A stretch of 25,698 nucleotides of DNA from a virus. Made by a program: the position numbers and the translations under genes. This document shows, in pieces, positions 10,249 to 22,449 of the stretch (position 1 is the stretch's first letter; every line of letters starts with the position of its first letter). The notes beneath the pieces are model-generated. The model searched no databases. It worked only from the letters and a program-made list of their open reading frames with translations, and was not told the origin of the DNA. The stretch is from the IMG/VR virus record IMGVR_UViG_3300028027_000216, positions 1-25,698 of that record. One strand, written 5' to 3'.

Positions 10249-10490
10249 TAGTATCCCTTTCCTTGGACGTCTTCATTTAGTATATCAGTTGCCACTGACA
10301 AAAGATGAGAGGTTGCGTATATCTCTCCAGTATTGTTCATATCAGTAATCTCTAGTTCTCTATACTCATCTGAATCATAGTCGCCATCAAAATCATTCAT
10401 TAGTTTTTCAAGCTTTTCTGCGTCTTGTTGTACAGATAGCAAATGTATCTTTATATACTCAACAATCTGCTTGGCTTTATTTTCCATCAA
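10248..10490 (-). CDS. Hypothetical protein (80 aa)
   Basis: Two adjacent ATG codons (10490, 10487) could start it; both lie in the 14-base overlap with the upstream gene. The product (M)MENKAKQIVEYIKIHLLSV... DFDGDYDSDEYRELEITDM... GEIYATSHLLSVATDIL is an acidic helical protein. It shares a C-terminal pattern with the 9958 product. No recognised family. Confidence 0.78.
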   Translation of the reverse strand: MMENKAKQIVEYIKIHLLSVQQDAEKLEKLMNDFDGDYDSDEYRELEITDMNNTGEIYATSHLLSVATDILNEDVQGKGY

Positions 10491-10846: not shown

Positions 10847-10862
10847 GCCATTTGGTCGTAAA

Positions 10863-10876
10863 GTGATTAAGATCAC
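10863..10876. promoter_or_regulatory. CRP/GlxR-like palindrome
   Basis: GTGAT-TAAG-ATCAC, flanked right by AC; close to the TGTGA-N6-TCACA consensus (outer T replaced by A). It is centred about 50 bases upstream of the start predicted from the 10817 promoter. Confidence 0.5.
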
Positions 10877-10882
10877 ACGGGT

Positions 10883-11638: not shown

Positions 11639-12312
11639 TAGTTCCAGTCAACATCCGTGTTATCGACTGTCCAAGATTCAATTGAGACATTGCCATTGTT
11701 TGAATCAATGCACAACTCATCTTGTAAGAAATAATGTGCGTCAAAGTCATTAACCTCGTCAAGAGGAAGTTCAACTTCAACATCAACTTGGATTGTTGCA
11801 GAGATAGTCACTGTTTGTGTAAGAGAGATATCCAGGAATTCTGCAATCTCTGTTAGGGCCTCTTGGTCATCTGAATCTGCAAAGCGCTCTTTGATATAAC
11901 TGCGAACGTTATCAATCTTATCTAGGAGCACTGCATTTGTCTTCTGTGCTTGACGTGCATTGTGTAGGTCCCATTCAATAGATGAAACCTTATCAGTTGT
12001 GAATTCAGGGTCTGAGTAACCATGAATGCGCTTATACGTAACTAGCATGTTTGGGTTGTATTCCACTGCAGGTGAGTGGAATGCATCTGAACCGATTGTT
12101 GTTGTCTCTTCCATTTGTTCGCTTTCTTTAGTAGGTGTATTAAGTGTAGCATGTTCGACTGACAATAACGTAGTCTTACGGCCACATGGACATGTTAGCT
12201 CTGTCACACCAGATGGGAATCCAAATCCATCTGATGATGTTAGTTCAATTAAACAATCACACTCATTTGGATCGCAGACGAAGGTATACTTGGATGATAC
12301 TAAATTATCCAT
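11638..12312 (-). CDS. Phage protein with N-terminal zinc-ribbon-like Cys motif (224 aa)
   Basis: The N-terminus has Cys pairs (FVCDPNECDCLIEL and ELTCPCGRKTTLL) in the spacing of a treble-clef or zinc-ribbon fold. A middle region YNPNMLVTYKRIHGYSDPEF is followed by a long helix and a C-terminal strand-rich domain with TQTVTISATIQVDVEVELPLDE and SIESWTVDNTDVDWN. The zinc ribbon hints at nucleic-acid or protein binding, perhaps in transcription or translation, but the protein is not one I can name. It overlaps the Api92-like gene by 8 bases, suggesting co-expression. Confidence 0.78.
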   Translation of the reverse strand: MDNLVSSKYTFVCDPNECDCLIELTSSDGFGFPSGVTELTCPCGRKTTLLSVEHATLNTPTKESEQMEETTTIGSDAFHSPAVEYNPNMLVTYKRIHGYSDPEFTTDKVSSIEWDLHNARQAQKTNAVLLDKIDNVRSYIKERFADSDDQEALTEIAEFLDISLTQTVTISATIQVDVEVELPLDEVNDFDAHYFLQDELCIDSNNGNVSIESWTVDNTDVDWN

Positions 12313-13214: not shown

Positions 13215-13230
13215 TGTGATCAAAATCATA
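13215..13230. promoter_or_regulatory. CRP/GlxR-like site, one arm degenerate
   Basis: TGTGA-TCAAAA-TCATA, one mismatch to TGTGA-N6-TCACA. It stands upstream of the 13131 promoter, preceded by several CGTAAT repeats (13192-13214). Confidence 0.45.
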
Positions 13231-13391: not shown

Positions 13392-14405
13392 TTATGCTAT
13401 TGCTAAAACTGATTTAACAATTTTTGCTAAGCGATTTTTTTCTGCGTTGATTTGTGCATCAAATCCACTTGCAGCAGCAAGAAGACTTTCGGTCTTTCCA
13501 CCACGAGCAGTGCGAGCCCAATCAAGGCGTTCAGTTAGTGCATTTAGTGCGCCCCAACCAGTGCCAGCAATCATCCCGTTGAATTCGCCAGTGTATAAAT
13601 CGTTGATTGTATCCACTTTTGTTTCCCACTTTTTAATTGCGCCCTTTGTATCCTTCTCAGGCTTTGGATAAGCAGCGAGAATAATATCGTTGAATTCCTT
13701 AGCATTGACTGACTTCTCATAGAGAGCGTTAGCCAACTTTGAGAATTCGTCCATATAGAAATCTGCCATTCCTAGTGCTTGACGAGCAATAGCAATCTTT
13801 CCTTCTGCAGTTTGTGTGTGGCGAATTTTGAATGATTGCTTTACGCCACCCTTTTTCTTAGAACCTAATGCAAGGTTAAGAGTGTTAGCGCACACAACAC
13901 GAACAGGTGTAATGCTTGCTTGAATTGCAATAGAGCCGTCGTGTGATGTGTTGATAAGCAAATAAGTTTTTACCTTATCATTGACACCAGTAGGGTCTAG
14001 AACAACTTCACGCTCTAGAGCAAGAGAACCGAATACCACACGACCACCCTTGATTGAACCAGCAGTTTCCCAGCGACCACCGCCGTCGAGAATGTTATCA
14101 CCAAATGCAAATAAATCTTCATTTTGCAACGGAACATAACGCTGACCAACTACACCAAGAATATCGGTTTGTGAATTGTCGGTAGGATTAGTGCGTAGGA
14201 CATACTGATAATCCTTATCAGATGTTAGGTGATTTGGAACTTCCAAATCTTCTAAACGGACATTCCATCCATTTAGATTTGCGAGAGATAGCATTTCAGA
14301 TGTATTTACTTCATTAGTAAATACAGTTCCTAAGCCGTGCCAAGCAGGTTCACGGAATGAGGCAAAAGATGTTTTGCCGTTTTGACTTTCGAGGTCGTGC
14401 GCCAT
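13392..14405 (-). CDS. DUF932 phage/plasmid-like protein (337 aa)
   Basis: Matches the phage/plasmid-like DUF932 family (TIGR03299-type) over its length: MAHDLESQNGKTSFASFREPAWHGLGT at the N-terminus, NTSEMLSLANLNGWNV, LGVVGQRYVPLQNEDLFAFGD, LLINTSHDGSIAIQASITPV, RVVCANTLNLAL and a late GTGWGALNALTERLDWAR. The length of about 340 is normal and the protein seems intact. The family is widespread in phages and plasmids of actinobacteria; its activity is not established. A ribosome site (AGAAGGAAAT) precedes the ATG. It has its own promoter (14434-14463), a CRP-like site upstream and a conserved hairpin downstream, and seems monocistronic with tRNA-Asp. Confidence 0.92.
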   Translation of the reverse strand: MAHDLESQNGKTSFASFREPAWHGLGTVFTNEVNTSEMLSLANLNGWNVRLEDLEVPNHLTSDKDYQYVLRTNPTDNSQTDILGVVGQRYVPLQNEDLFAFGDNILDGGGRWETAGSIKGGRVVFGSLALEREVVLDPTGVNDKVKTYLLINTSHDGSIAIQASITPVRVVCANTLNLALGSKKKGGVKQSFKIRHTQTAEGKIAIARQALGMADFYMDEFSKLANALYEKSVNAKEFNDIILAAYPKPEKDTKGAIKKWETKVDTINDLYTGEFNGMIAGTGWGALNALTERLDWARTARGGKTESLLAAASGFDAQINAEKNRLAKIVKSVLAIA

Positions 14406-14433
14406 ATTTCCTTCTTTCTTTGTTGTTATTTCA

Positions 14434-14463
14434 AGTATAACAGGATGAACTGACAGATGTCAA
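14434..14463 (-). promoter_or_regulatory. Promoter of the DUF932 gene, with TGTCAG box
   Basis: Minus strand TTGACA (14463-14458), 18-base spacer, TATACT (14439-14434). TGTCAG (14455-14450) lies inside the spacer, exactly 10 bases before the -10. Confidence 0.8.
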
Positions 14464-14493
14464 TTCGTATAGGTAAAAATGTCCGATTTTCAA

Positions 14494-14509
14494 TGTGATC
14501 AAATTCACA
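14494..14509. promoter_or_regulatory. CRP/GlxR-like site, exact
   Basis: TGTGA-TCAAAT-TCACA, centred about 75 bases upstream of the predicted start of the DUF932 transcript. Confidence 0.6.
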
Positions 14510-14519
14510 CACGTAAGCC

Positions 14520-14539
14520 TGTGGATAAGCTGTGGATAA
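14520..14539 (-). promoter_or_regulatory. Two adjacent DnaA-box-like sites
   Basis: TGTGGATAA at 14520-14528 and 14531-14539, both exact, 11 bases apart, followed by a hairpin (CCGC/GCGG). Confidence 0.45.
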
Positions 14540-14571
14540 CCCGCCTCGCATTTCTGCGGGATTGTCAAGTC

Positions 14572-14757
14572 CTATTTTTGTTTAGTAATTTGTTCCCAAA
14601 AAGTTGGGCGGTCTTCATTTACTTGCGCTTTAACATCATTATAAGTTTTATCATTTACCAGTGCGGTAATAATAAAAAACGGCGCAATAAAGAAAAACAT
14701 AAGTAAGAATACGAAACCAAAACCTATTAGATAGCCAAGAACATCATAGTATCGCAT
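14572..14757 (-). CDS. Small membrane protein (61 aa)
   Basis: MRYYDVLGYLIGFGFVFLLMFFFIAPFFIITALV is one long or two short hydrophobic segments (about residues 8-34), followed by a charged soluble tail (NDKTYNDVKAQVNEDRPTFWEQITKQK). The ribosome site is weak (GAGAC). Function unknown; position after the 14769 gene with an 11-base gap suggests the same transcript. It could be an inner-membrane effector such as an exclusion protein, though nothing specific shows that. Confidence 0.72.
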   Translation of the reverse strand: MRYYDVLGYLIGFGFVFLLMFFFIAPFFIITALVNDKTYNDVKAQVNEDRPTFWEQITKQK

Positions 14758-14768
14758 AGTCTATTGTC

Positions 14769-15239
14769 TCACGCTTCTACTAGATTTGACAAATCGTATC
14801 TATCTTCAGATATTTTTGTTTGGTCAACACTAGACATTTTAGATTGCCATAATGATAGATTGGATTCAAGACGGTCACCAAAAACTCTTACAAAATCTGC
14901 AAGGTCCACGGTCTCACCAGTCAAACAAGATTTAAGTACATCGACACCTAGGTACACTCGACTATCACCGCTCCACCCAATTGAAACAGGCACCAGGCAC
15001 GTGCGATACTCATCTTGAATCCAACCCACCCCCTCTCCACAAATAACAGCATGCTTAGCACATCCATATGCATCAGGCTCATCAATCATGACTAGTACTA
15101 GATCTTCTACAGAATGACTCTTCATATATTCAATAGGGTCCATGTCATAAGTTGCAACCTGGATATCCCGTGCACGTTCCAATAGCTTAGCTTGATCAAG
15201 CTTATGGCCAATAAATCCTCGTGTGCGTTCTCTTGACAT
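14769..15239 (-). CDS. Hypothetical protein (156 aa)
   Basis: A strong ribosome site (AGGAGATATAC) precedes the ATG at 15239. The product MSRERTRGFIGHKLDQAKLL... DIQVATYDMDPIEYMKSHSVEDLVLVMIDEPDAYGCAKHAVICGEG... TCLVPVSIGWSGDSRVYLGVDVLKSC looks like an alpha/beta domain with several Cys, but no catalytic motif is clear. No family recognised. It is in one unit with the GP88-like gene upstream and the membrane protein downstream. Confidence 0.77.
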   Translation of the reverse strand: MSRERTRGFIGHKLDQAKLLERARDIQVATYDMDPIEYMKSHSVEDLVLVMIDEPDAYGCAKHAVICGEGVGWIQDEYRTCLVPVSIGWSGDSRVYLGVDVLKSCLTGETVDLADFVRVFGDRLESNLSLWQSKMSSVDQTKISEDRYDLSNLVEA

Positions 15240-15248
15240 GTATATCTC

Positions 15249-15998
15249 CTATTTCTTAGTAGCGCTAAATCGAATGTCGGCTTTACCATAAACACATAGG
15301 CCACAAGATACGCAGGCGGACCCATTGCTTGAGATTAGAGGAATAGACTTATTATTCTCAGGGCACTTAGCCCCTACTTTACCAGTCAATTCTTTCATCT
15401 TATCAGCGGTTACGGCAAAAGTTTTTCCAAGGTATGCAAGGCGGACCTCATAATCCTTTTTTAACTCTTCTCCAATTGTAGCATTTTCATCATCGGTTGA
15501 AAAGTAGAGAGAGAGGTTGTTAATATTATTTAAAATAAGGGCTGCAGACTTAACTCGTGTATATACCCAAAATTGAATATCAGGATGATTTTCAATAACA
15601 GTCTTCCACGCATATGTATAAGTATCATTAAAGAAATCGCCGTCCCAGTGAATGCGGAATAACTTAGGCGCTTCTTTTTTATCACAATCAGCAACAAATT
15701 CTACAATCATCTCATCTAATAGATTAATCATAGTTTCGCTATCTGCGTCTTTAAGTAGGGCCCAGTTATGGAGCAGATTAGTTTTTACTCCTTTGAATAA
15801 CTTTTCAAGTTTCCCAGCGTAGCAAACAGTCTCACAGATAGACGTTGCACCAGGGCAAGAAAAGTCTTTTCCTGCGGGCAATCCAAACGTGTTTGCAATT
15901 GCGGCTTGCTTTCCATTTTTTGTGACAAGGTTAGCCACCTTTCGGTCATTAGAACGTTTAAGTTTCATATTAATAATTGTATCGGGAGCCACTGACAT
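15249..15998 (-). CDS. GP88-like phage protein (249 aa)
   Basis: The N-terminal region resembles the GP88 family of actinobacteriophage proteins: VANLVTKNGKQAAIANTFGL, LPAGKDFSCPGATSICETVCYAGK, with Cys48, Cys55 and Cys59 in the typical Cx6Cx3CYA spacing. Further segments: FRIHWDGDFFNDTYTYAWKTVIENHPDI and QFWVYTRVKSA. The C-terminus has another Cys group (KCPENNKS... SACVSCGLCVYGKADI). Two Cys groups suggest metal or Fe-S binding. Function is not known to me. The start at 15998 overlaps the previous stop (TAATG). Family naming is by motif recall. Confidence 0.8.
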   Translation of the reverse strand: MSVAPDTIINMKLKRSNDRKVANLVTKNGKQAAIANTFGLPAGKDFSCPGATSICETVCYAGKLEKLFKGVKTNLLHNWALLKDADSETMINLLDEMIVEFVADCDKKEAPKLFRIHWDGDFFNDTYTYAWKTVIENHPDIQFWVYTRVKSAALILNNINNLSLYFSTDDENATIGEELKKDYEVRLAYLGKTFAVTADKMKELTGKVGAKCPENNKSIPLISSNGSACVSCGLCVYGKADIRFSATKK

Positions 15999-16129
15999 TA
16001 TAGGTCCCCCATTTCAGCGTCGGCCATGCGTGTTTCCATATAATCAATTACTGGATCACGGTAGTAACCTTTTACACAGATAGTGCAGATAGAGTAATTA
16101 GTACAGTAGCATGAATTAATATCGTTCAT
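15998..16129 (-). CDS. Cys-rich microprotein (43 aa)
   Basis: First gene of the 16129-14572 unit, with ribosome site GAAAGG upstream. The product MNDINSCYCTNYSICTICVKGYYRDPVIDYMETRMADAEMGDL has CxC and CxxC motifs (Cys7, 9, 15, 18), a likely single zinc knuckle followed by a helix. Coupled by TAATG to the GP88-like gene, which also has Cys clusters, so the two could form a complex; this is inference. Confidence 0.72.
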   Translation of the reverse strand: MNDINSCYCTNYSICTICVKGYYRDPVIDYMETRMADAEMGDL

Positions 16130-16158
16130 GATTATGCCTTTCGTTCGGGTGTATATTA

Positions 16159-16187
16159 ATACTAGCAGATATTTCAGTGGAATTCAA
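16159..16187 (-). promoter_or_regulatory. Promoter of the 16129-14572 unit
   Basis: Minus strand TTGAAT (16187-16182), 17-base spacer, extended -10 TGC-TAGTAT (16164-16159). The spacer carries CCACTGAAA, as at the 10817 promoter, in place of the TGTCAG box. Confidence 0.7.
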
Positions 16188-16206
16188 TTCCTACTCGTAA
16201 GTAGCG

Positions 16207-16222
16207 TGTGATGTTGATCACA
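16207..16222. promoter_or_regulatory. CRP/GlxR-like site, exact
   Basis: TGTGA-TGTTGA-TCACA upstream of the 16159 promoter, followed by a CGCAAAATTGCG hairpin and TTTTGTCAAG. Confidence 0.6.
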
Positions 16223-16271
16223 AGCCGCCTCGCAAAATTGCGTGTTTTGTCAAGCAGCTAGATCGGTGTGT

Positions 16272-16296
16272 TGAGCAGTTTTAATTCTTGCTCAGG
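16272..16296 (-). repeat. 3'-UTR hairpin element, copy after the 16313 gene
   Basis: Minus strand CCTGAGCAAGAATTAAAACT then GCTCA, 16 bases after the stop at 16313. Confidence 0.65.
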
Positions 16297-16312
16297 AATA
16301 TTGCGCTATTTT

Positions 16313-16495
16313 TTATGCGCCAATTTTTACCATAGCCCACCGCATACCATTTTCAGTTTGCAAAGATAACTTAGTTAGGTTTGGTCGGACAGAAACAATT
16401 TCACGAATTGAACCTGTAATACCTGACTTACCTGTTGTGAAAGTATCTCCAATTCGGTAGAACTTTCCTTTTGTTGTATCCATTACTGGCGACAT
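16313..16495 (-). CDS. Small SH3-like/beta-barrel protein (60 aa)
   Basis: The product MSPVMDTTKGKFYRIGDTFTTGKSGITGSIREIVSVRPNLTKLSLQTENGMRWAMVKIGA is predicted all-beta. It aligns by eye with the 17127 product (IGQTYTTARSGVEGTITEVV... RIKLDVNGQPRWTTAK) and more loosely with the 18359 product (IGKTYRSNSRHFEGEIISAE), so three paralogues with a KOW/SH3-like look lie within 2 kb. A ribosome site (GAAGGAAAT) precedes the ATG. Ligand unknown. It shares a transcript with the 16620 gene upstream. Confidence 0.75.
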   Translation of the reverse strand: MSPVMDTTKGKFYRIGDTFTTGKSGITGSIREIVSVRPNLTKLSLQTENGMRWAMVKIGA

Positions 16496-16525
16496 ATATT
16501 TCCTTCTTTCGGGTAGTTGTTGTGT

Positions 16526-16550
16526 TGAGCCTTTTCACAACTTGCTCAGG
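16526..16550 (-). repeat. 3'-UTR hairpin element, copy between the 16620 and 16313 genes
   Basis: Minus strand CCTGAGCAAGTTGTGAAAAG then GCTCA; the loop is the most divergent of the copies and one stem base changes. Confidence 0.55.
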
Positions 16551-16619
16551 TTGTAAGAGTTCTTACTTACGACATTGGACTAGATACTCTTAGAAACTGT
16601 CCCTGTTTCGATTATTTAG

Positions 16620-17036
16620 TTAGAGATAGCGAGCAATTTGCTTCATAGTAGAAGCATTTACTGTTTCCTCATCTGTCATCTTTAGAATTGTGAGAGCATT
16701 TGTGATGTCCTCTTTCATTTCCTTGTATGTGTGAGAGTGGATTACCTCAAAATCCTTTTCAGGCTCAGCAGGAAAATCCTTCTCGCTTACTATGATGTCA
16801 AAATCAACATTTAGTGTCTTGTTCCAAGAACGATAGTTTGTGCGTAAGTTTTCTGACTTTGAGAAATTGTCAATAGCCCACTTACCAATTTGCTTTTTCC
16901 ACGCTTCATAAGCCTTAGTGTGCTTTGCTTCTTTTTCTGATTGTGTAGCATAGTCTTTTTCTAGTTGTGCTAGACGAGTTTCTAGTGCCTTGATTACCTT
17001 TGGTGTTGCCACCTTTACTGTGATTGCTCTTGACAT
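16620..17036 (-). CDS. Coiled-coil protein of unknown function (138 aa)
   Basis: MSRAITVKVATPKVIKALETRLAQLEKDYATQSEKEAKHTKAYEAW... opens with a short strand and then a long charged helix likely to form a coiled coil (about residues 12-55). The second half has FDIIVSEKDFPAEPEKDFEV and a helical end (MKEDITNALTILKMTDEETVNASTMKQIARYL). No family is recognised. A ribosome site (AAAGGAAACAA) lies before the ATG, behind a TGTCAG-box promoter at 17094-17115. Confidence 0.8.
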   Translation of the reverse strand: MSRAITVKVATPKVIKALETRLAQLEKDYATQSEKEAKHTKAYEAWKKQIGKWAIDNFSKSENLRTNYRSWNKTLNVDFDIIVSEKDFPAEPEKDFEVIHSHTYKEMKEDITNALTILKMTDEETVNASTMKQIARYL

Positions 17037-17093
17037 TTGTTTCCTTTGTTTGTGGGTGGGTGGTTTGTTTTTCTTACTCTATAAGTGTAGCAG

Positions 17094-17115
17094 GGGCTAC
17101 TGACATTTGCCAGTA
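17094..17115 (-). promoter_or_regulatory. TGTCAG-box promoter of the 17036 gene
   Basis: Minus strand TGTCAG (17115-17110), 10 bases, extended -10 TGC-TACACT (17099-17094). Confidence 0.65.
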
Positions 17116-17126
17116 GCCCCACTTGA

Positions 17127-17276
17127 CTACTTCTTTGCTGTTGTCCAGCGTGGTTGTCCATTTACATCAAGTTTGATACGATAAGAGCCATTATCGTTCT
17201 TGACGACCTCTGTGATTGTTCCTTCTACTCCTGAGCGAGCAGTTGTGTATGTCTGACCGATTACTGGTGTTGTCAT
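17127..17276 (-). CDS. Small SH3-like protein (49 aa), paralogue of the 16313 product
   Basis: MTTPVIGQTYTTARSGVEGTITEVVKNDNG... YRIKLDVNGQPRWTTAKK is a compact all-beta protein with the same order of motifs as the 16313 product (start, G-x-x-[YF]-T-T-x-x-S-G, I-x-E-[VI]-V, RW near the C-terminus). The ribosome site AAAAGGAAGC precedes the ATG, and a promoter with TTGATA, TGTCAG and TAGACT boxes lies at 17307-17335. It is a single-gene transcript. Function unknown; KOW-like folds often bind RNA or ribosomes, but that is only a possibility. Confidence 0.75.
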   Translation of the reverse strand: MTTPVIGQTYTTARSGVEGTITEVVKNDNGSYRIKLDVNGQPRWTTAKK

Positions 17277-17306
17277 TTTGCTTCCTTTTCTGTTGTTGTT
17301 AATACA

Positions 17307-17335
17307 AGTCTAGCGGATTGGTCTGACATTATCAA
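17307..17335 (-). promoter_or_regulatory. TGTCAG-box promoter of the 17276 gene
   Basis: Minus strand TTGATA (17335-17330), 17-base spacer, -10 TAGACT (17312-17307), with TGTCAG (17328-17323) 10 bases before the -10. Confidence 0.75.
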
Positions 17336-17424
17336 ATCGTAAATCGGTCAAATCGGACATTTTTTCCACAAATTCTGTGATAAATGTCATAATGTCGTAA
17401 CTTGACAAAGCTCGGAAAATCCGT

Positions 17425-17447
17425 GGCGCACTCGGGCGTGTTGCGCC
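17425..17447. repeat. GC-rich hairpin with the shared CTCGGGCGTG core
   Basis: GGCGCA (17425-17430) pairs with TGCGCC (17442-17447); the loop CTCGGGCGTGT is the complement of the ACACGCCCGAG sequence in the gaps at 18809, 19924 and 20759. Confidence 0.5.
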
Positions 17448-17456
17448 AGCATTTTT

Positions 17457-17483
17457 ATGCAGTGCGTTGCATATTTATTTATT
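17457..17483. repeat. 27-bp hairpin repeat, copy 2
   Basis: ATGCA-GTGCGT-TGCAT plus ATTTATTTATT, 25 of 27 bases identical to 13251-13277. Here it overlaps the stop codon of the 17479 gene. Confidence 0.6.
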
Positions 17484-17613
17484 CAGAATATTTATTTTTA
17501 TATTTTTGTTTTCGTGAATAAACTTTTTTTGATTGCACATAAGTTGCAGCGTTTGATCTCCGCAATTCTTGAATGCGTGTAACTTTTTCTTTTAGCATTT
17601 TCTTTAATCCCAT
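17479..17613 (-). CDS. Small highly basic protein (44 aa)
   Basis: The ATG at 17613 lies in the last codons of the upstream gene (10-base overlap). The product MGLKKMLKEKVTRIQELRRSNAATYVQSKKVYSRKQKYKNKYSE has about one third Lys/Arg and no acidic patch, so nucleic-acid binding is plausible. It is the last gene of the 18568-17479 unit. No family recognised. Confidence 0.68.
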   Translation of the reverse strand: MGLKKMLKEKVTRIQELRRSNAATYVQSKKVYSRKQKYKNKYSE

Positions 17614-17876
17614 TCTGGTAGCCAAGCGGACAAGTGGTGTTGGTCTGCAATTGCGTGTGCGGGTGCAGTAGTTTTATTTTTATAGAATACGCCTTCAGGC
17701 AATTCAATTTCAGTATCGCCATCGCCTGCGTGAATTGCATCTATTGCGTCAATGCAAGGTTGCACCATAGTAAGTGGAACGGGCGGGTAGTGATTACCCT
17801 GTAAGTGATAACCGATAGCCTGTTCAAGCGATAGGTCAAAGTTAGTTGCTAAGTCAATTGCTGTATTGTTTCCCAT
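17604..17876 (-). CDS. Hypothetical protein (90 aa)
   Basis: The frame is open from 17924, but ATG 17876 overlaps the preceding stop exactly as TAATG and is the likely start: MGNNTAIDLATNFDLSLEQAIGYHLQGNHYPPVP... MVQPCIDAIDAIHAGDGDTEIELPEGVFYKNKTTAPAHAIADQHHL. The block SLEQAIGYHLQGNHYPPVP...C..AI is seen in many small actinophage proteins whose role is unknown. It is soluble, with no metal motif. Confidence 0.78.
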   Translation of the reverse strand: MGNNTAIDLATNFDLSLEQAIGYHLQGNHYPPVPLTMVQPCIDAIDAIHAGDGDTEIELPEGVFYKNKTTAPAHAIADQHHLSAWLPEWD

Positions 17877-18091
17877 TATCGTGTTACCACTCTTCCATCT
17901 CGATAGAATATTTTTGTATAGCATTTACCTGTATTGGTATAAATATTTACTGTTGAATACTCGTTAGCCATTCCCCAGTCTGTAAAACTGAAGAAAGATT
18001 TCCAAGCGTCAAATTCGCTTTCATAGCGTTGCTTCCAATGAGGACTTTCCTCATAGTCATACTGACAAGATACTAGATACTCATAGTCCAT
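17876..18091 (-). CDS. Hypothetical protein (71 aa)
   Basis: ATG 18091 has a good ribosome site (GAAGGAGCATAACT) and lies 2 bases after the previous stop; the longer reading from 18199 runs through the previous gene and is rejected. The product MDYEYLVSCQYDYEESPHWKQRYESEFDAWKSFFSFTD... YSTVNIYTNTGKCYTKIFYRDGRVVTR is rich in Tyr and Trp, alpha then beta. No family recognised. Confidence 0.77.
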   Translation of the reverse strand: MDYEYLVSCQYDYEESPHWKQRYESEFDAWKSFFSFTDWGMANEYSTVNIYTNTGKCYTKIFYRDGRVVTR

Positions 18092-18093
18092 AG

Positions 18094-18234
18094 TTATGCT
18101 CCTTCGGGTGTTGTAAATAATTTTACCTCTTGGCACTGACAAGTTTCGACATCGTAGTCTAACTCGTTGCCCCAGAAAATAAGTCCTTCTCCGTGGCATT
18201 CATCGCAAGCAAATCGCATTACTGAGTTTATCAT
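18094..18234 (-). CDS. Zinc-finger-like microprotein with a DnaJ-type CxxCxGxG motif (46 aa)
   Basis: ATG 18234 overlaps the preceding stop (TAATG); a second ATG (18219) is possible. The product MINSVMRFACDECHGEGLIFWGNELDY... ETCQCQEVKLFTTPEGA contains CDECHGEG, the repeat unit of DnaJ central zinc fingers, and a second pair CQC. One DnaJ repeat alone cannot form the usual double site, but CxxC plus CxC could hold one zinc. With phage Hsp20 and GroES-like genes present, a chaperone-interfering role is possible but unproven. Confidence 0.7.
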   Translation of the reverse strand: MINSVMRFACDECHGEGLIFWGNELDYDVETCQCQEVKLFTTPEGA

Positions 18235-18356
18235 TAGATAGCACCTTCCTGAAATAATCCAATTTCAATGTCTAATAATTCTGCGGGTGTGGCTTCGGAT
18301 AAATCTACCCAGCCCGCACCTTCATTATCTATTCTAAAGATTTCAATATATCCCAT
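18234..18356 (-). CDS. Small acidic protein (40 aa)
   Basis: The ATG at 18356 follows the previous stop by 2 bases. The product MGYIEIFRIDNEGAGWVDLSEATPAELLDIEIGLFQEGAI is a strand-strand-helix miniature with strongly acidic charge. It resembles the other MGY-starting microprotein at 20334 (MGYVKSLELEYYLADEPKDEL) only in the first residues. No family. Support is from coupling (TAATG) on the downstream side. Confidence 0.68.
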   Translation of the reverse strand: MGYIEIFRIDNEGAGWVDLSEATPAELLDIEIGLFQEGAI

Positions 18357-18358
18357 TA

Positions 18359-18568
18359 TTATTCACCGACTTTCACGGCAATAGTCGCATACTTAGTGCG
18401 GATACTACCTTTATGATTTACGCCGATTAGATAGGCTTCGGTATTTTCTCCATACCAAATACCTTCACGCTTTTCAGCAGAGATAATTTCACCCTCAAAG
18501 TGGCGAGAGTTAGAGCGGTATGTCTTGCCGATTAGCAAGTTTTCGATTGTGTATAGTTTAGTAGCCAT
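18359..18568 (-). CDS. SH3-like protein (69 aa), third paralogue
   Basis: First gene of the 18568-17479 unit. GTG 18577 is also in frame, but ATG 18568 is better spaced from AGAAGG. The product MATKLYTIENLLIGKTYRSNSRHFEGEIISAEKREGIWYGENTEAYLIGV... TIAVKVGE is all-beta and shares the order IGKTY-[TS]...S..[FV]EG.I with the 16313 and 17127 products. Two TGTCAG-box promoters lie in tandem upstream. Confidence 0.75.
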   Translation of the reverse strand: MATKLYTIENLLIGKTYRSNSRHFEGEIISAEKREGIWYGENTEAYLIGVNHKGSIRTKYATIAVKVGE

Positions 18569-18602
18569 TAGTGGCACCTTCTTTCATTTTGTTGTTGATA
18601 CA

Positions 18603-18624
18603 AGTCTATCATTTACTACTGACA
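18603..18624 (-). promoter_or_regulatory. TGTCAG-box promoter, proximal, of the 18568 unit
   Basis: Minus strand TGTCAG (18624-18619), 10 bases, TGA-TAGACT (18608-18603). Confidence 0.65.
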
Positions 18625-18678
18625 TTTCAGGGAAGCCACGCCGTAAATCATAAACTATTTTGTTTTTCTTACTATGTA

Positions 18679-18700
18679 AGTCTAGCAGAACGGACTGACA
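18679..18700 (-). promoter_or_regulatory. TGTCAG-box promoter, distal, of the 18568 unit
   Basis: Minus strand TGTCAG (18700-18695), 10 bases, TGC-TAGACT (18684-18679); it repeats the proximal site 76 bases away. Confidence 0.65.
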
Positions 18701-18748
18701 TTTTCACATTACTAGCCAGTAAATCCAAATAATGAGACGCTCAAGCCG

Positions 18749-18764
18749 TGTGATAAATATCACA
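18749..18764. promoter_or_regulatory. CRP/GlxR-like site, exact
   Basis: TGTGA-TAAATA-TCACA, between the DnaA-box-like site and the distal promoter. Confidence 0.6.
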
Positions 18765-18776
18765 AAAATTTCCAGG

Positions 18777-18785
18777 TTATCCACA
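18777..18785 (+). promoter_or_regulatory. DnaA-box-like TTATCCACA
   Basis: Exact match; a near copy TTATCCCCA follows at 18799-18807. Confidence 0.4.
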
Positions 18786-18808
18786 GACACACCGTAAGTT
18801 ATCCCCAG

Positions 18809-18841
18809 ACACGCCCGAGTGCGAGGCGCTGTCGGGCGTGT
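18809..18841. repeat. 10-bp GC-rich hairpin
   Basis: ACACGCCCGA (18809-18818) pairs perfectly with TCGGGCGTGT (18832-18841). The left arm sequence recurs in the gaps at about 19924 and 20759. It could end transcription of the 19507-18895 unit. Confidence 0.6.
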
Positions 18842-18859
18842 TGCATTTAGTTGAAAGCT

Positions 18860-18884
18860 TGAGCAGTTTTAGATCGTGCTCAGG
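18860..18884 (-). repeat. 3'-UTR hairpin element, copy after the 18895 gene
   Basis: Minus strand CCTGAGCACGATCTAAAACT then GCTCA, 10 bases after the stop at 18895. One stem change (A to C in the left arm side of the loop) leaves the pairing intact. Confidence 0.65.
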
Positions 18885-18894
18885 ATTTTATTTT

Positions 18895-19110
18895 TTATTT
18901 TAGCAGAGCGTGTAATTCTGGCAGTTGACAAATTTCTTTTACACCGCAAGCATTTTGAAATTTTGCAAAATCAAAATTAGGATTATCAGCAGAAAACATT
19001 TCACCAAATTCAAAAACCAAATCTTCAAAAGTAAATTGGTCAATCAAATCTGAAAAAGATTCTAAGACATTTGAAACTTCAATAAAAGTTTTACGAGTAT
19101 AACGAGACAT
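18895..19110 (-). CDS. Hypothetical protein (71 aa)
   Basis: MSRYTRKTFIEVSNVLESFSDLIDQFTFEDLVFEFGEMFSADNPNFDFAKFQNACGVKEICQLPELHALLK: helical, acidic and Phe-rich, in the style of small phage inhibitors, but no family is recognised. The ATG overlaps the preceding stop by one base (TAATG at 19110). It is last in the 19507-18895 unit and followed by the conserved 3' hairpin. Confidence 0.77.
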   Translation of the reverse strand: MSRYTRKTFIEVSNVLESFSDLIDQFTFEDLVFEFGEMFSADNPNFDFAKFQNACGVKEICQLPELHALLK

Positions 19111-19322
19111 TAATTTTTACCCCATTTCAAAGTAGCATAAGAATTATTTTTATTTATTTCTTGCATTGCATTTAGAGAGTCAATAGAACCAATAAAACTT
19201 TCAGCAAAAAGTTTTTGAATAAAACTTTCAGGCATTGTTGCAAGAGCAGAAATTACATAGTCGGGAGCCTTGTGCTCGTCAATCTCTGCAATTAGATTTA
19301 CAGTGTGTGAAATTGTTATCAT
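19110..19322 (-). CDS. Hypothetical protein (70 aa)
   Basis: The frame is open from 19373, but ATG 19322 fits the TAATG overlap with the preceding stop: MITISHTVNLIAEIDEHKAPDYVISALATMPESFIQKLFAESFIGSIDSLNAMQEINKNNSYATLKWGKN. It looks like a beta-alpha-alpha protein. No family is recognised. Coupled on both sides. Confidence 0.76.
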   Translation of the reverse strand: MITISHTVNLIAEIDEHKAPDYVISALATMPESFIQKLFAESFIGSIDSLNAMQEINKNNSYATLKWGKN

Positions 19323-19507
19323 TACTTTACCGCCTTTCCTTTTAGAACACCACGAACACCGAGCAAGTCGCAATCGAACTTGACGGAAATACCAACAGGG
19401 AGTTGTGTTGGATAAGTGTTGATGAATTGAGCAACCGCACCCTTAGAAGGAAGGTTGATTTTTGATACTGAACCTGAGAAGGTTTCTAGTCTGATAGTGT
19501 AAGTCAT
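19322..19507 (-). CDS. Hypothetical beta-rich protein (61 aa)
   Basis: MTYTIRLETFSGSVSKINLPSKGAVAQFINTYPTQLPVGISVKFDCDLLGVRGVLKGKAVK. First gene of its unit, preceded by AGAAAGGTGGTCAGAA, a leader almost identical to that of the 19760 gene (AGAAAGGTGGTCAAA), behind a TGTCAG-box promoter at 19544-19565. Function unknown. Confidence 0.76.
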   Translation of the reverse strand: MTYTIRLETFSGSVSKINLPSKGAVAQFINTYPTQLPVGISVKFDCDLLGVRGVLKGKAVK

Positions 19508-19543
19508 TTCTGACCACCTTTCTGTTGTTTGTTTATAGGAATA

Positions 19544-19565
19544 AGTCTAGCATAGGGGGCTGACA
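19544..19565 (-). promoter_or_regulatory. TGTCAG-box promoter of the 19507 unit
   Basis: Minus strand TGTCAG (19565-19560), 10 bases, TGC-TAGACT (19549-19544). Confidence 0.65.
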
Positions 19566-19593
19566 TTTTGAGGCATTTAGCCCCAAAAGTCGG

Positions 19594-19609
19594 TGTGAGA
19601 TACCTCACA
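19594..19609. promoter_or_regulatory. CRP/GlxR-like site, exact, overlapping a stop codon
   Basis: TGTGA-GATACC-TCACA. The right arm contains the TGA stop of the 19605 gene, about 50 bases upstream of the 19544 promoter. Confidence 0.6.
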
Positions 19610-19760
19610 GGCAGTTGATACAATTACAACCTTTAGAGGAGAAGAGATACTTTAGCAATTCCTTGCGAGTATAAGCATCTAATCCATAAGAGGATTTTAC
19701 TCCGCCATTATGGTATTCGTGAACGATAGTAGAGAATAGAGTTTCATTTAGTGTAGTCAT
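19605..19760 (-). CDS. Hypothetical protein with C-terminal CxCxxC (51 aa)
   Basis: MTTLNETLFSTIVHEYHNGGVKSSYGLDAYTRKELLKYLFSSKGCNCINCL: a helical body ending in a Cys triplet that could bind metal or be lipid- or redox-modified. It has its own promoter (19796-19817, TATAAT), ribosome site AAAGAAAGG, and a leader that nearly copies the 19507 gene's leader. Too short to assign. Confidence 0.72.
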   Translation of the reverse strand: MTTLNETLFSTIVHEYHNGGVKSSYGLDAYTRKELLKYLFSSKGCNCINCL

Positions 19761-19795
19761 TTTGACCACCTTTCTTTTGTTTGTTTATACTAGTA

Positions 19796-19817
19796 ATTAT
19801 AGCAGGGGGGTCTGACA
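19796..19817 (-). promoter_or_regulatory. TGTCAG-box promoter with consensus -10
   Basis: Minus strand TGTCAG (19817-19812), 10 bases, extended -10 TGC-TATAAT (19801-19796): the copy that best identifies the TAGACT hexamer of the others as a -10. Confidence 0.75.
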
Positions 19818-19856
19818 TCTACTGACCAGTAATCGGTCAAATCGGACATTTTGAAA

Positions 19857-19872
19857 TGTGATTAGAATCACA
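19857..19872. promoter_or_regulatory. CRP/GlxR-like site, exact
   Basis: TGTGA-TTAGAA-TCACA upstream of the 19796 promoter; a second, one-mismatch copy (TGTGT-TCATAA-TCACA) lies at 19899-19914. Confidence 0.6.
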
Positions 19873-19985
19873 TTAGCTTTTTACGCTCAAAATTCTAGTG
19901 TGTTCATAATCACACCTGTAAAGACACGCCCGAGTGCGCCTCGATTTTTTTATGTTTGTCAAGTGCAACACGCAATTGTTTTTAT

Positions 19986-20087
19986 TTATTTATAATCAAA
20001 AAACATTTCTGCTAACAATTCTAATTCTTCTTTTGTTAAGTGATCCAATTCAATCGCTTTTTCAAAACCAAAAATATCTTTTTCCAT
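19986..20087 (-). CDS. Small acidic helical protein (33 aa)
   Basis: MEKDIFGFEKAIELDHLTKEELELLAEMFFDYK, behind an excellent ribosome site (GAGGAGAAAT, also the last codons of the upstream gene). Probably two short helices; similar in style to small anti-host factors. Last gene of the 20617-19986 unit. Too short for a family call. Confidence 0.65.
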   Translation of the reverse strand: MEKDIFGFEKAIELDHLTKEELELLAEMFFDYK

Positions 20088-20089
20088 TT

Positions 20090-20230
20090 TTATTTCTCCT
20101 CTATATCTGCAACATAAACATCACTACGGCGGATTCCACCATATTCTAAATTAGAATCAAACATTGAAATAGCAGAGTCATAGTCTTCTGCTTCAACATT
20201 TATAAAACATGTAAATTCAAATAGTGGCAT
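20090..20230 (-). CDS. Small acidic protein (46 aa)
   Basis: MPLFEFTCFINVEAEDYDSAISMFDSNLEYGGIRRSDVYVADIEEK: a beta-alpha-beta pattern resembling half of a ferredoxin-like fold (FTCFINVEAEDYDSAISMF). Two bases separate it from the next coding region; ribosome site GGGAGATAT. No assigned function. Confidence 0.68.
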   Translation of the reverse strand: MPLFEFTCFINVEAEDYDSAISMFDSNLEYGGIRRSDVYVADIEEK

Positions 20231-20232
20231 TA

Positions 20233-20337
20233 TTATATCTCCCAACAATTAGAGCAGAGGGCAGAAATAAATTCTGCATCCTCTTCGGACATTTCCATTA
20301 CAAATTCATCGCAACCTTTACAAAATAAATCTTTCAT
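20233..20337 (-). CDS. Zinc-ribbon microprotein (34 aa)
   Basis: MKDLFCKGCDEFVMEMSEEDAEFISALCSNCWEI has two CxxC pairs (Cys6/Cys9 and Cys28/Cys31) framing an acidic helix: a minimal four-cysteine zinc ribbon. Its ATG overlaps the previous stop (ATGA), with ribosome site AAAGGAG in the previous gene's last codons. Function unknown. Confidence 0.7.
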   Translation of the reverse strand: MKDLFCKGCDEFVMEMSEEDAEFISALCSNCWEI

Positions 20338-20441
20338 TTATATTCTCCTTTCGAGATAAGTTCATCTAGCATTGTTGCTAGTTCATCTTTTGGCTCGTCT
20401 GCCAAATAGTATTCTAATTCTAAAGATTTTACATATCCCAT
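20334..20441 (-). CDS. Small acidic protein (35 aa)
   Basis: MGYVKSLELEYYLADEPKDELATMLDELISKGEYK. Coupled upstream by TAATG and downstream by ATGA. Helical and acidic; no family. Evidence is the exact packing in the operon and the ribosome site it carries for the next gene. Confidence 0.66.
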   Translation of the reverse strand: MGYVKSLELEYYLADEPKDELATMLDELISKGEYK

Positions 20442-20617
20442 TATTTAGAAACCTTCCAATCTCTCCACATCGGGAGTCTTTCAGGGTCGGTATCATCATA
20501 CCAACGCTCAATGTTATTTTCGCAAACTTCACAAAATGTGAATTGCTCATCTCCTACCATAGAGATAGCAGGCTTGAATGGAGTGTGCTCTTTGCACATT
20601 GTAATTGTTGAATTCAT
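20441..20617 (-). CDS. Zinc-finger-like small protein (58 aa)
   Basis: MNSTITMCKEHTPFKPAISMVGDEQFTFCEVCENNIERWYDD... WRDWKVSK: Cys8 and His12 plus Cys29/Cys32 (CEVC) make a plausible C-H-C-C zinc site, followed by a Trp-rich tail. It begins with the shared initiation cassette GGAATTC-AA-ATGAATTC. First gene of the 20617-19986 unit, behind the promoter at 20668-20689. Confidence 0.74.
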   Translation of the reverse strand: MNSTITMCKEHTPFKPAISMVGDEQFTFCEVCENNIERWYDDTDPERLPMWRDWKVSK

Positions 20618-20667
20618 TTGAATTCCTTTCTAGTTTAAGGACTTTCCTTAACTTTCTTTATGACTTT

Positions 20668-20689
20668 AGTCTAACATAGACCACTGACA
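20668..20689 (-). promoter_or_regulatory. TGTCAG-box promoter of the 20617 unit
   Basis: Minus strand TGTCAG (20689-20684), 10 bases, TAGACT (20673-20668), here with TGT before the -10. Confidence 0.65.
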
Positions 20690-20727
20690 TTTTGGGGGGT
20701 TACTCGCCAGTATTTTCAAAGTATTTT

Positions 20728-20743
20728 TGTGATTTGCACCACA
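20728..20743. promoter_or_regulatory. CRP/GlxR-like site, one mismatch
   Basis: TGTGA-TTTGCA-CCACA upstream of the 20668 promoter. A TTATCCACA box follows at 20749-20757, then ACACGCCCGA. Confidence 0.5.
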
Positions 20744-20748
20744 TAGAC

Positions 20749-20757
20749 TTATCCACA
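20749..20757 (+). promoter_or_regulatory. DnaA-box-like TTATCCACA
   Basis: Exact match, in the same order relative to the CRP-like and ACACGCCCGA motifs as in the 18777 gap. Confidence 0.4.
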
Positions 20758-20828
20758 GACACGCCCGACGCCGCCTCGAAATTTTTGCGATCTGTCAAGT
20801 CGACACACCGCAAAAACTTTTTTTTATT

Positions 20829-20891
20829 TTAGATTAATAAAAGATAACCAAATAAAGTTACGAGAATTACTAACGCAATTATTTCTTTCAT
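20829..20891 (-). CDS. Possible 20-aa single-span membrane peptide
   Basis: MKEIIALVILVTLFGYLLLI: a charged start followed by 16 hydrophobic residues, stop at TAA. The ATG is 1 base after the stop of the 20893 gene, last in the 21449-20829 unit. The size is like known one-helix micropeptides, but no homologue is recalled. Confidence 0.5.
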   Translation of the reverse strand: MKEIIALVILVTLFGYLLLI

Positions 20892-20892
20892 T

Positions 20893-21051
20893 TTATTTTT
20901 CCAAGCAAGCTTCAAAAAACTTTTCCTCGTTAAATCTTTCGTTATCTTTTTTAAACATATTAGAAAAATCTAATAGCAGACCAGCGGGTGCATTATCGAA
21001 ATGCTTGTTTAGAATTTCGGCGGTGGCGATGTAGTCTTTACGTGTCATCAT
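20893..21051 (-). CDS. Hypothetical protein (52 aa)
   Basis: Two adjacent ATGs (21051, 21048); the first overlaps the preceding stop (TAATG). The product (M)MTRKDYIATAEILNKHFDNAPAGLLLDFSNMFKKDNERFNEEKFFEACLEK is helical with the motif RKDYIATAEIL, common at the start of small actinophage proteins of unknown role. Predicted soluble. Confidence 0.74.
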   Translation of the reverse strand: MMTRKDYIATAEILNKHFDNAPAGLLLDFSNMFKKDNERFNEEKFFEACLEK

Positions 21052-21161
21052 TAGTTTAATCCATTCTCTTTAAGGTCTTTGATTACTGCGATTACTAGGG
21101 GAATAGTTACACCTAGCATAACAAGTTGCACGAGGGTAGTCAATAGGCGATTAGTTGTCAT
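21051..21161 (-). CDS. Single-span membrane peptide (36 aa)
   Basis: MTTNRLLTTLVQLVMLGVTIPLVIAVIKDLKENGLN: one hydrophobic helix (about residues 7-27) with basic start and charged end. Its ATG lies within the 3' end of the upstream gene (11-base overlap) and its stop gives TAATG to the next. Function unknown. Confidence 0.66.
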   Translation of the reverse strand: MTTNRLLTTLVQLVMLGVTIPLVIAVIKDLKENGLN

Positions 21162-21297
21162 TAGTTGTTTTCCATTTCTTGTAAGCCTTGTAACCTGCAA
21201 AGATTACGCCAGCGGTAATAAGTAACTGCCAAGATAGTGCGATATAGCACCATTCTGTGTCAAGCATAAATCCGTAGTTATCTAGTTCGATTGTCAT
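21151..21297 (-). CDS. Small membrane protein (48 aa)
   Basis: MTIELDNYGFMLDTEWCYIALSWQLLITAGVIFAGYKAYKKWKTTNDN: about 17 soluble residues, one membrane span (18-36) and a basic tail, suggesting N-out/C-in topology by the positive-inside rule. Coupled by TAATG to the 21297 gene. No family. Confidence 0.7.
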   Translation of the reverse strand: MTIELDNYGFMLDTEWCYIALSWQLLITAGVIFAGYKAYKKWKTTNDN

Positions 21298-21449
21298 TAG
21301 TTCTGTTCTACCTTTCGCATATGCGCTACAACATTTTTAGAAACCTTTTGTAGTTCGGCTACTGCCTTATTCATTTCATCTGCTGATGAAGCCTTGAAAT
21401 CAACGCCTAATAGTTGAGCGCCGTCCCATAGTGAGTATGTGATTGTCAT
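21297..21449 (-). CDS. Small soluble helical protein (50 aa)
   Basis: MTITYSLWDGAQLLGVDFKASSADEMNKAVAELQKVSKNVVAHMRKVEQN: a short strand then a long amphipathic helix. First gene of the 21449-20829 unit. Its upstream DNA carries TTGACT on the minus strand but no clear -10, so its promoter is not well defined. Confidence 0.72.
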   Translation of the reverse strand: MTITYSLWDGAQLLGVDFKASSADEMNKAVAELQKVSKNVVAHMRKVEQN

Positions 21450-21530
21450 TTACTGTTCTTCTTTCTGTTAGTTTTTATAGTATAAGTTTAATAGTAGGGA
21501 TAGGGAAAAGTCAAGTTTTGATCGTGTGAG

Positions 21531-21743
21531 TTACGCCACACGATTAGCGAATACCCACTTACTTTCGTTAGGGGTAAGGTAGCGGTGAGAGATAAGACCC
21601 TCAGAGGCTACCATATGGACATATGCCATACGGCTAATGTAGTTACCATTAGCAAGGCGGAAGAGTTCATTACTCTTAGTGTTAGAGGAAGCCATAGGGT
21701 GGCTAGGCTCTGTTACTACTGTTAGTGTATTTAGTGAATTCAT
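21531..21743 (-). CDS. Hypothetical protein (70 aa)
   Basis: MNSLNTLTVVTEPSHPMASSNTKSNELFRLANGNYISRMAYVHMVASEGLISHRYLTPNESKWVFANRVA. Starts with the shared cassette AGAAAGGAATTC...ATGAATTC. Soluble, mixed alpha/beta; no family. A promoter with TTGACT, 17-base spacer and TGA-TAGTCT lies at 21863-21891; the 100-base leader between carries a GGTTAG/CTAACC hairpin (21768-21784). Single-gene unit. Confidence 0.73.
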   Translation of the reverse strand: MNSLNTLTVVTEPSHPMASSNTKSNELFRLANGNYISRMAYVHMVASEGLISHRYLTPNESKWVFANRVA

Positions 21744-21767
21744 TTTAGAATTCCTTTCTTTTTATTC

Positions 21768-21784
21768 GGTTAGTATTTCTAACC
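21768..21784. repeat. Hairpin in the leader of the 21743 gene
   Basis: GGTTAG (21768-21773) pairs with CTAACC (21779-21784), loop TATTT; on the plus strand TTTTT follows. CTAGGT-based repeats lie just upstream (about 21795-21830). Confidence 0.45.
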
Positions 21785-21862
21785 TTTTTGCTGACCTAGT
21801 TTATTTGCTCTTTCGGGAGGCTCACCTAGGATTTTCTTTTATTTAGTTTTTCTTATGTAGTA

Positions 21863-21891
21863 AGACTATCAGACCGAACCCTGAAAGTCAA
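21863..21891 (-). promoter_or_regulatory. Promoter of the 21743 gene
   Basis: Minus strand TTGACT (21891-21886), 17-base spacer, extended -10 TGA-TAGTCT (21868-21863). No TGTCAG at the 10-base position, unlike its neighbours. Confidence 0.65.
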
Positions 21892-21897
21892 GGTTAT

Positions 21898-22065
21898 TTA
21901 GTGTGATGTCTCCCACATTTCTTTACACTTGTTAGGGTTATCCCACCAAGGGAAACCCTCGTGATACTGAGCGGGGGCTAGGACTACCTGACCGCAAGGG
22001 CAGAGGTTCATTAGTCCTCTAGGGTAGTCTGATACTGTAGCGAATGGTTCAAATAGTGAATTCAT
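21898..22065 (-). CDS. Small protein with CPC motif (55 aa)
   Basis: ATG 22065 carries the GGAATTC-AAA-ATGAATTC cassette, so the longer reading from 22095 is rejected. The product MNSLFEPFATVSDYPRGLMNLCPCGQVVLAPAQYHEGFPWWDNPNKCKEMWETSH has CPCG and a later Cys/His, suggesting a metal site, and many aromatic residues. Single-gene unit behind a TGTCAG-box promoter (22117-22138). Confidence 0.73.
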   Translation of the reverse strand: MNSLFEPFATVSDYPRGLMNLCPCGQVVLAPAQYHEGFPWWDNPNKCKEMWETSH

Positions 22066-22116
22066 TTTGAATTCCTTTCTTTCTTTGTTAATCACCTTGA
22101 TTAACTTGATACTAGT

Positions 22117-22138
22117 ATCCTATCAGACCCCACTGACA
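22117..22138 (-). promoter_or_regulatory. TGTCAG-box promoter of the 22065 gene
   Basis: Minus strand TGTCAG (22138-22133), 10 bases, TGA-TAGGAT (22122-22117). Confidence 0.65.
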
Positions 22139-22176
22139 TTTTCTACTCAAAAAACGCCCAAATCGGACATTCTGAA

Positions 22177-22192
22177 TGTGATTTACACCACA
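22177..22192. promoter_or_regulatory. CRP/GlxR-like site, one mismatch
   Basis: TGTGA-TTTACA-CCACA upstream of the 22117 promoter, preceded by AATCGGACATT (22161-22171) as in the 19839 gap. Confidence 0.5.
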
Positions 22193-22434: not shown

Positions 22435-22449
22435 CTATTGGAGTTTAAT

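Follow-up and report, generated by a model that had tools for sequence, protein, structure and literature searches.

What switches on the many tiny genes that are read leftward in IMG/VR virus record IMGVR_UViG_3300028027_000216 is the question raised by this locus, which was analysed here as the entire record (25,698 bp, hereafter the window; a fragment, judging by its ends). An earlier note on this DNA had listed nine leftward sites in which a TGTCAG box precedes a -10 hexamer of the form TANNNT by exactly 10 bp, and had offered the box as an activator site, as part of an unusual promoter class coordinating the tiny genes, or as a repressor operator, adding that the stoperators of mycobacteriophage L5 share a TGTCA core within a different full sequence. 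From its sequence pattern, TGTCAG-N10-TANNNT is a genuine promoter element in this lineage of phages. The reading that we favour, with moderate confidence, is that the box would stand in for the -35 element and be read by a phage factor acting with the host sigma-A polymerase; a GlxR-type protein of the host may co-activate some of the promoters.

A box at a fixed distance from the -10

The window contains 13 exact matches to TGTCAG-N10-TANNNT, every one on the minus strand, against 0.42 +/- 0.61 expected from dinucleotide shuffling (maximum 3 among 100 shuffles). The TGTCAG hexamer alone is not in excess, with 16 copies in the window against 12.2 expected, a count reached by 20 of the 100 shuffles and in agreement with a Markov check; as many as 13 of these 16 copies sit exactly 10 bp before a -10, and the unusual thing is the arrangement of TGTCAG and -10, not the abundance of the hexamer. 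A scan of the window for consensus sigma-70 promoters gave no excess either (40 against 42.0). Eight of the nine coordinates listed earlier are exact and the ninth, given as 17094, belongs to the site at 17084-17105; the nine -10 hexamers and the two -35 elements (TTGACA before 14455, TTGATA before 17328) are as described, and four sites had been missed (10279, 12143, 15976 and 18120). The full set is as follows, the palindromes named being those of the CRP/GlxR type listed further below, with distances from the box in bp.

22117..22138, minus strand: box promoter TGTCAG-N10-TAGGAT, TGA before the -10; ATG 22065 downstream; palindrome 46.5 upstream
20668..20689, minus strand: box promoter, -10 TAGACT; ATG 20617; palindrome 46.5 upstream
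19796..19817, minus strand: box promoter, -10 TATAAT; GTG 19769; exact palindrome 47.5 upstream
19544..19565, minus strand: box promoter, -10 TAGACT; ATG 19507; exact palindrome 36.5 upstream
18679..18700, minus strand: box promoter, -10 TAGACT, the more upstream of two paired promoters; exact palindrome 56.5 upstream
18603..18624, minus strand: box promoter, -10 TAGACT, downstream partner of 18679..18700; GTG 18577
18120..18141, minus strand: box promoter, -10 TAAAAT, without TGN; ATG 18091
17307..17328, minus strand: box promoter, -10 TAGACT, without TGN, -35 TTGATA; ATG 17276; palindrome (1 mismatch) 55.5 upstream
17084..17105, minus strand: box promoter, -10 TACACT; ATG 17036
15976..15997, minus strand: box promoter, -10 TACAAT, without TGN, located where the GP88 gene starts (Pfam 4.9e-52)
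14434..14455, minus strand: box promoter, -10 TATACT, -35 TTGACA, ahead of the DUF932 gene (1.8e-46); exact palindrome 46.5 upstream
12143..12164, minus strand: box promoter, -10 TACACT; ATG 12114; palindrome (1 mismatch) 36.5 upstream
10279..10300, minus strand: box promoter, -10 TATACT; ATG 10248

An extended TGN stands ahead of the -10 in 10 of the 13 promoters, and a scripted search found a plausible start codon behind a purine-rich stretch, 25-101 nt past the -10, at all 13. The GP88 mRNA made from the 15976 promoter may be leaderless, because an ATG in that gene begins about at the predicted start point. Away from any promoter, an inverted pair of TGTCAG lies inside an open reading frame (ORF) at window 9868-9892 (CATGTCAG...CTGACAT).

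The arrangement extends well beyond the window. A DUF932 scan yielded 35 viral relatives (loci L009-L043), in which 220 box sites share the orientation of the DUF932 gene and 3 are opposed to it, with at least one site in 33 of the 35 loci and only 5 and 0 matches for a scrambled control (GACTGT); the enrichment of TGTCAG-N10-TANNNT for which the earlier note had proposed a search is thus present both in the window and in its relatives. Near-identical sites were collapsed because several of the loci are 99% alike, which left 144 distinct exact sites with the consensus AAA(W)TGTCAG(W)(S)(S)C-N3-TGN-TA(G)(A)(A/C)T-T, TGN being present in 101 of them and an A, seven bases past the -10, in 72%. 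With this conserved A taken as +1, the box occupies positions from about -32 to -19. The spacing is rigid: TANNNT is found at 10 bp from 142 of 233 distinct TGTCAG copies, and the extended -10 (TGNTANNNT) follows 99 of the 233 at 10 bp, compared with 6 over the 22 other spacings (3 to 25) combined. A second TANNNT peak at spacing 5 (24/233) was set aside, since on visual inspection it seems to come from TATGAT overlapping the real -10. Variants occur at the same position in some relatives, namely TGTCGG in L023, L024, L028 and L029 and TGTCTG in L026 and L042. In a related record of 107,950 bp (G001), whose DUF932 protein is 98% identical to that of the window, 13 of 15 box matches fall within a leftward arm at 11.8-24 kb, and the longer ORFs outside this arm are mostly rightward.

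A form of the element is also carried by cultured phages. The leftward arms of Streptomyces phages of the Stanwilliamsviridae (Jay2Jay, NootNoot and others) resemble the window in their tiny leftward genes, DUF932, ThyX and transglycosylase genes and TAGACT promoters, and in seven of them (Jay2Jay, NootNoot, EGole, Daubenski, LilMartin, LukeCage and Genie2) 11 of 43 distinct TAGACT promoters have TGTC exactly where the box would stand, the next best offset reaching 2. These 43 promoters show C in 74% at the fourth base of TGTC and A in 93% at +1; unlike most of those in the window, they have retained a TTG at -35. Mandalore and Naboo together have TGTC at the box position in 4 of 26 promoters (next best 2), and the stretch of Weasels2 has 3 TAGACT promoters of this form; none was found in the 32-kb stretch of Blueeyedbeauty. 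As Streptomyces relatives carry a form of the box element, the putative protein that reads it can be sought in laboratory strains.

Bacterial genomes gave a different picture from that of the phages. The pattern AATGTCAG-N7-TGNTANNNT, which covers 47 of the 144 distinct phage sites, occurs in 5 of 296 Actinomycetes genomes, once in each (reversed control 0); the 296 genomes represent the class of the Rothia metagenome-assembled genome G022, which is among the five matched and had itself been picked through a stricter scan. In 320 kb of small genomes (16 of the 29 Actinomycetes genomes of <=1.5 Mb, G+C content 0.40-0.49), TGTCNG-N10-TANNNT was found once, against a mean of 3.6 at other spacings. 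Across the entire genome-contig collection the stricter pattern hit 10 scattered places, none of them titled as a freshwater actinobacterium, and this is a weak test because no more than 6 of the 144 phage sites fit that pattern. To judge from these searches, box promoters are not a class of the actinobacterial genomes searched.

Phased palindromes upstream of the box

Beyond anything in the earlier note, many of the promoters are accompanied by palindromes of the CRP/GlxR type. Allowing up to one mismatch, TGTGA-N6-TCACA occurs 14 times in the window, where 1.14 are expected, with all 14 copies inside the leftward arm, and 8 of the 13 boxes have such a palindrome centred 36.5-56.5 bp upstream.

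22177..22192: CRP/GlxR-type palindrome, 1 mismatch
21902..21917: palindrome, 1 mismatch, near a boxless TTGACT-N17-TAGTCT match (by eye)
21525..21540: palindrome, 1 mismatch, near a boxless TTGACT-N18-TAAACT match
20728..20743: CRP/GlxR-type palindrome, 1 mismatch
19899..19914: second palindrome upstream of the 19796 promoter (89.5), 1 mismatch
19857..19872: CRP/GlxR-type palindrome TGTGATTAGAATCACA, exact
19594..19609: CRP/GlxR-type palindrome, exact
18749..18764: CRP/GlxR-type palindrome, exact
17376..17391: CRP/GlxR-type palindrome, 1 mismatch
16207..16222: CRP/GlxR-type palindrome, exact, without a box promoter within 150 bp
14494..14509: CRP/GlxR-type palindrome, exact
13215..13230: palindrome, 1 mismatch, without a box promoter within 150 bp
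12193..12208: palindrome, 1 mismatch, 36.5 from the box at 12164
10862..10877: palindrome, 1 mismatch, near a boxless TTGACA-N18-TAGACT match

When the relatives and the window are taken together, the sequences upstream of 205 distinct box sites hold 38 exact palindromes with a spacer of 6 and a single one with spacers of 0-5 and 7-12 combined; with up to one mismatch there are 68, compared with 0-4 for seven permuted half-sites. About a third of the box promoters in the loci studied carry TGTGA-N6-TCACA. The palindrome centres lie preferentially 36.5, 46.5 and 56.5 bp upstream of the box, few being at -26.5, -41.5 or elsewhere, a phasing near 10 bp that places them on one face of the helix (R 0.66, n=61) with a nominal p of 2e-12, which is optimistic because the sites are related. 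All four exact palindromes of G001 lie within its arm, at 16-22 kb. The palindromes are also found at boxless promoters that bear a -35 (12 of 58), and no exact copy was present in the stretches of Jay2Jay and Mandalore examined. Between palindrome and box, window 17340-17360, 19830-19855 and 22150-22170 and the upstream regions of relatives contain recurring modules: ATGTCCG, mostly 32-33 or 24 upstream, GACACGC at -25 (8 sites) and GCGTGTC at -17 (7 sites).

The palindromes are probably bound by a GlxR/Crp protein of the host, as the distribution of candidate genes suggests. Among 22 viral records, many of them fragments and one of them that of the window, no Crp-type helix-turn-helix (HTH) domain was detected, and one was found in each of 29 sampled Actinomycetes genomes of <=1.5 Mb; the helix ASRETVNKALADF, which we take to be the GlxR recognition helix, is carried by all 20 of the loci inspected in small Actinomycetes genomes, 5 of the 20 having a higher G+C content (0.58-0.63). 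Class I activation by CRP or GlxR likewise employs TGTGA-N6-TCACA upstream of the promoter with phasing of about 10 bp; the window differs in that the promoters are those of a phage, the phase is offset by 2-3 bp and the palindromes are paired with a box. Host cyclic AMP (cAMP)-CRP at a phage promoter has a precedent in the pir promoter of phage T1, where it represses, and no box or phased array is mentioned in the part of that source available (PMC6737242).

It is possible, and we hold this tentatively, that the arm is governed by two-input promoters, in which a phage box used in place of the -35 would be combined with phased GlxR-consensus sites, whose exact matches are commoner here than in whole small genomes of host type, and the tiny takeover genes would thereby be tied to host cAMP. 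If this is true, the palindromes could also titrate GlxR. As the pairing suggests, viruses infecting lake bacteria may be reading the cAMP regulator of their hosts.

How the box may be read

In the mechanism that we favour, the sites would be promoters that serve the leftward arm, the virus being an actinophage with relatives among the Stanwilliamsviridae phages of Streptomyces. Each promoter would combine AAA(W)TGTCAG(W)(S)(S)C, spanning roughly -32 to -19, with a TAGACT-like sigma-A -10, an A at +1 and, in most cases, a TGN. A phage-encoded factor would read the box at fixed geometry in place of a -35, together with the host sigma-A RNA polymerase and in the manner of MotA, and host GlxR/Crp would act as a class-I-type co-activator from palindromes on one face of the helix, mostly at about -64, -74 or -84. 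The sigma-A type -10 is the ordinary part of these promoters; new are the box, the fixed geometry in which it stands and the phased sites of CRP/GlxR type with which it is paired. The earlier suggestion of an activator site or unusual promoter class coordinating the tiny genes fits the rigid spacing, the single gene direction, the conservation in relatives and the conserved start-point A. That the class is unusual agrees with its absence, as a class, from the bacterial genomes searched and with the lower frequency of -35 elements at box promoters among extended -10 matches that precede an ORF, where a -35 is present at 8 of the 97 that have the box and at 32 of the 127 that lack it (nominal p 0.0013).

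The middle promoters of phage T4 appear to be the nearest known system in their working, and the window may hold an actinophage candidate for the counterpart of that class. In these promoters a MotA box (wwwTGCTTtA) located 12 +/- 1 bp from the -10 replaces the -35 (PMC2988021). Both classes have a phage box beginning WWWTG in place of the -35, many copies, a host sigma -10 and often a TGN; they differ in that the box here is TGTCAGWSS at exactly 10 bp, 1-3 bp further downstream, with no TGCTT at 12 +/- 1, and in the addition of phased palindromes. Neither MotA nor AsiA was among the matches listed (including the best 25 of 32 families) in general Pfam scans of 82 G001 proteins, in which no dedicated profile search was included. 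No description of the box motif was found in the literature searched, mostly outside subscription papers, and the word promoter is absent from the available portions of PMC10202952, PMC6802176, PMC8612146, PMC7650747 and PMC10914622. Whatever its reader, the box would mark where transcription units lie in an arm of tiny genes that is still poorly understood.

Several observations weigh against a box that replaces the -35 and is helped by GlxR. No box-reading protein was found. When the 578 extended -10 matches are taken as a whole, the box does not significantly exclude a -35 (p 0.26). Of the 14 palindromes in the window, five are without a box promoter inside 150 bp, 5 of the 13 boxes have no palindrome at a phased distance, and palindromes are few in the more distant relatives L023-L040. 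The exact palindrome occurs in only 4 of 29 small Actinomycetes genomes, against 7 of 29 for the reversed control, so that either the GlxR sites of the host are degenerate or the assignment to GlxR is wrong; the phase is 2-3 bp off the class I positions of Escherichia coli. WhiB is a candidate reader of the box but was rejected as the sole one: it is present in all seven related records of >80 kb and in 16 of 22 viral records overall, but it is also encoded by Blueeyedbeauty, in whose 32-kb stretch TAGACT promoters were not found, and WhiB alone therefore fails to explain the box.

The WhiB gene lies amid box promoters in G003, G005, G006, G012, G013 and G015, and a second WhiB is located elsewhere in five of these (not in G005). 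DUF7455, a small family (G001:101771-101923), is found in 14 of 17 phage records and 0 of 14 control genomes and is absent from Blueeyedbeauty; it may be offered as a candidate reader, a weak lead since two fragments are also without it. An HTH_17 protein was discarded, passing the cut-off in 1 of 17 records and reaching E <= 0.001 in 5 of 17.

Four other readings of the box have to be weighed. The first needs no phage factor, the box being an intrinsic contact of the host sigma-A polymerase or of a host factor and the sites simply strong promoters of host type, with which the host-type -10 and TGN agree, as does the -35 TTG that the Streptomyces phages retain; the absence of any such class from the actinobacterial genomes searched makes it unlikely.

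We regard as improbable, too, that the box is an operator (or stoperator) of a phage repressor, placed within the promoters and silencing the arm later or in lysogeny. Operators that overlap promoters are common, and L5 stoperators share with the box a TGTCA core and a single orientation, but their 13-mer is a different one, is unmatched in the window at up to two mismatches and is not tied to a -10, whereas 13 of the 16 TGTCAG copies are promoter-locked. A distance fixed to the base (99 against 6) is nothing that a repressor needs, and the -35 is rarer with the box at ORF-proximal promoters; the operator suggested in the earlier note and a stoperator of the L5 type are not borne out, and a repressor of another kind is improbable.

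There is a similarly small chance that the box loads an antiterminator like Q or AlpA. The QBE and ABE sites are short, lie between -35 and -10 in a fixed position relative to the polymerase and need a -10-like pause (PMC6606751, PMC9371919). In its position within the spacer, its 6-bp length, its asymmetry and its fixed geometry the box resembles these elements of lambda, phage 21 and Pseudomonas, and terminator-like matches are more numerous in the arm (17) than in shuffles (9.1), but only 5 of these 17 are on the leftward strand. A -10-like pause element was not detected, ANNNT being not clearly above column expectation at offsets -5 to +32 of the 205 sites. Q and AlpA are known to serve one promoter or a few each, and here there are 13 or more.

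Finally, a phage-encoded sigma factor as the reader is very improbable, since a gap of 10 bp leaves too little room for the -35 and -10 of a sigma factor, the -10 and TGN are of sigma-A type and the Sigma70_r4 family cut-off was passed by 0 of 13 records (only this domain being searched, in records that may be incomplete), even though 5 of the 13 have weak matches to Sigma70 region 4 and two cultured phages of Nanopelagicales encode a sigma-70 factor (PMC10202952).

Genome setting and host

At 8000-22500 the window has no megablast match in the phage collection. Among cultured phages, the DUF932 protein places the window closest to Streptomyces phages of the Stanwilliamsviridae (54%), and the GP88 protein places it closest to mycobacteriophages and the Streptomyces phage Mandalore (53-55%). 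The gene order of Jay2Jay is similar to that of the window, with tiny leftward genes including DUF932 followed by ThyX and then a transglycosylase. The host is probably a small freshwater actinobacterium of low G+C content, and some of the small genomes searched above may, by their size and G+C content, be akin to Nanopelagicales. The other genes located in the window are the following.

23624-24328: ThyX gene
24512-25072: SLT-type lysozyme gene
2343-2771, 3131-3490 and 5334-5627: phage-encoded genes for Hsp20, thioredoxin and a GroES-like protein (Cpn10), respectively
4832, 13278 and 22360: tRNA-Met, tRNA-Asp and tRNA-Ile with anticodon TAT, respectively

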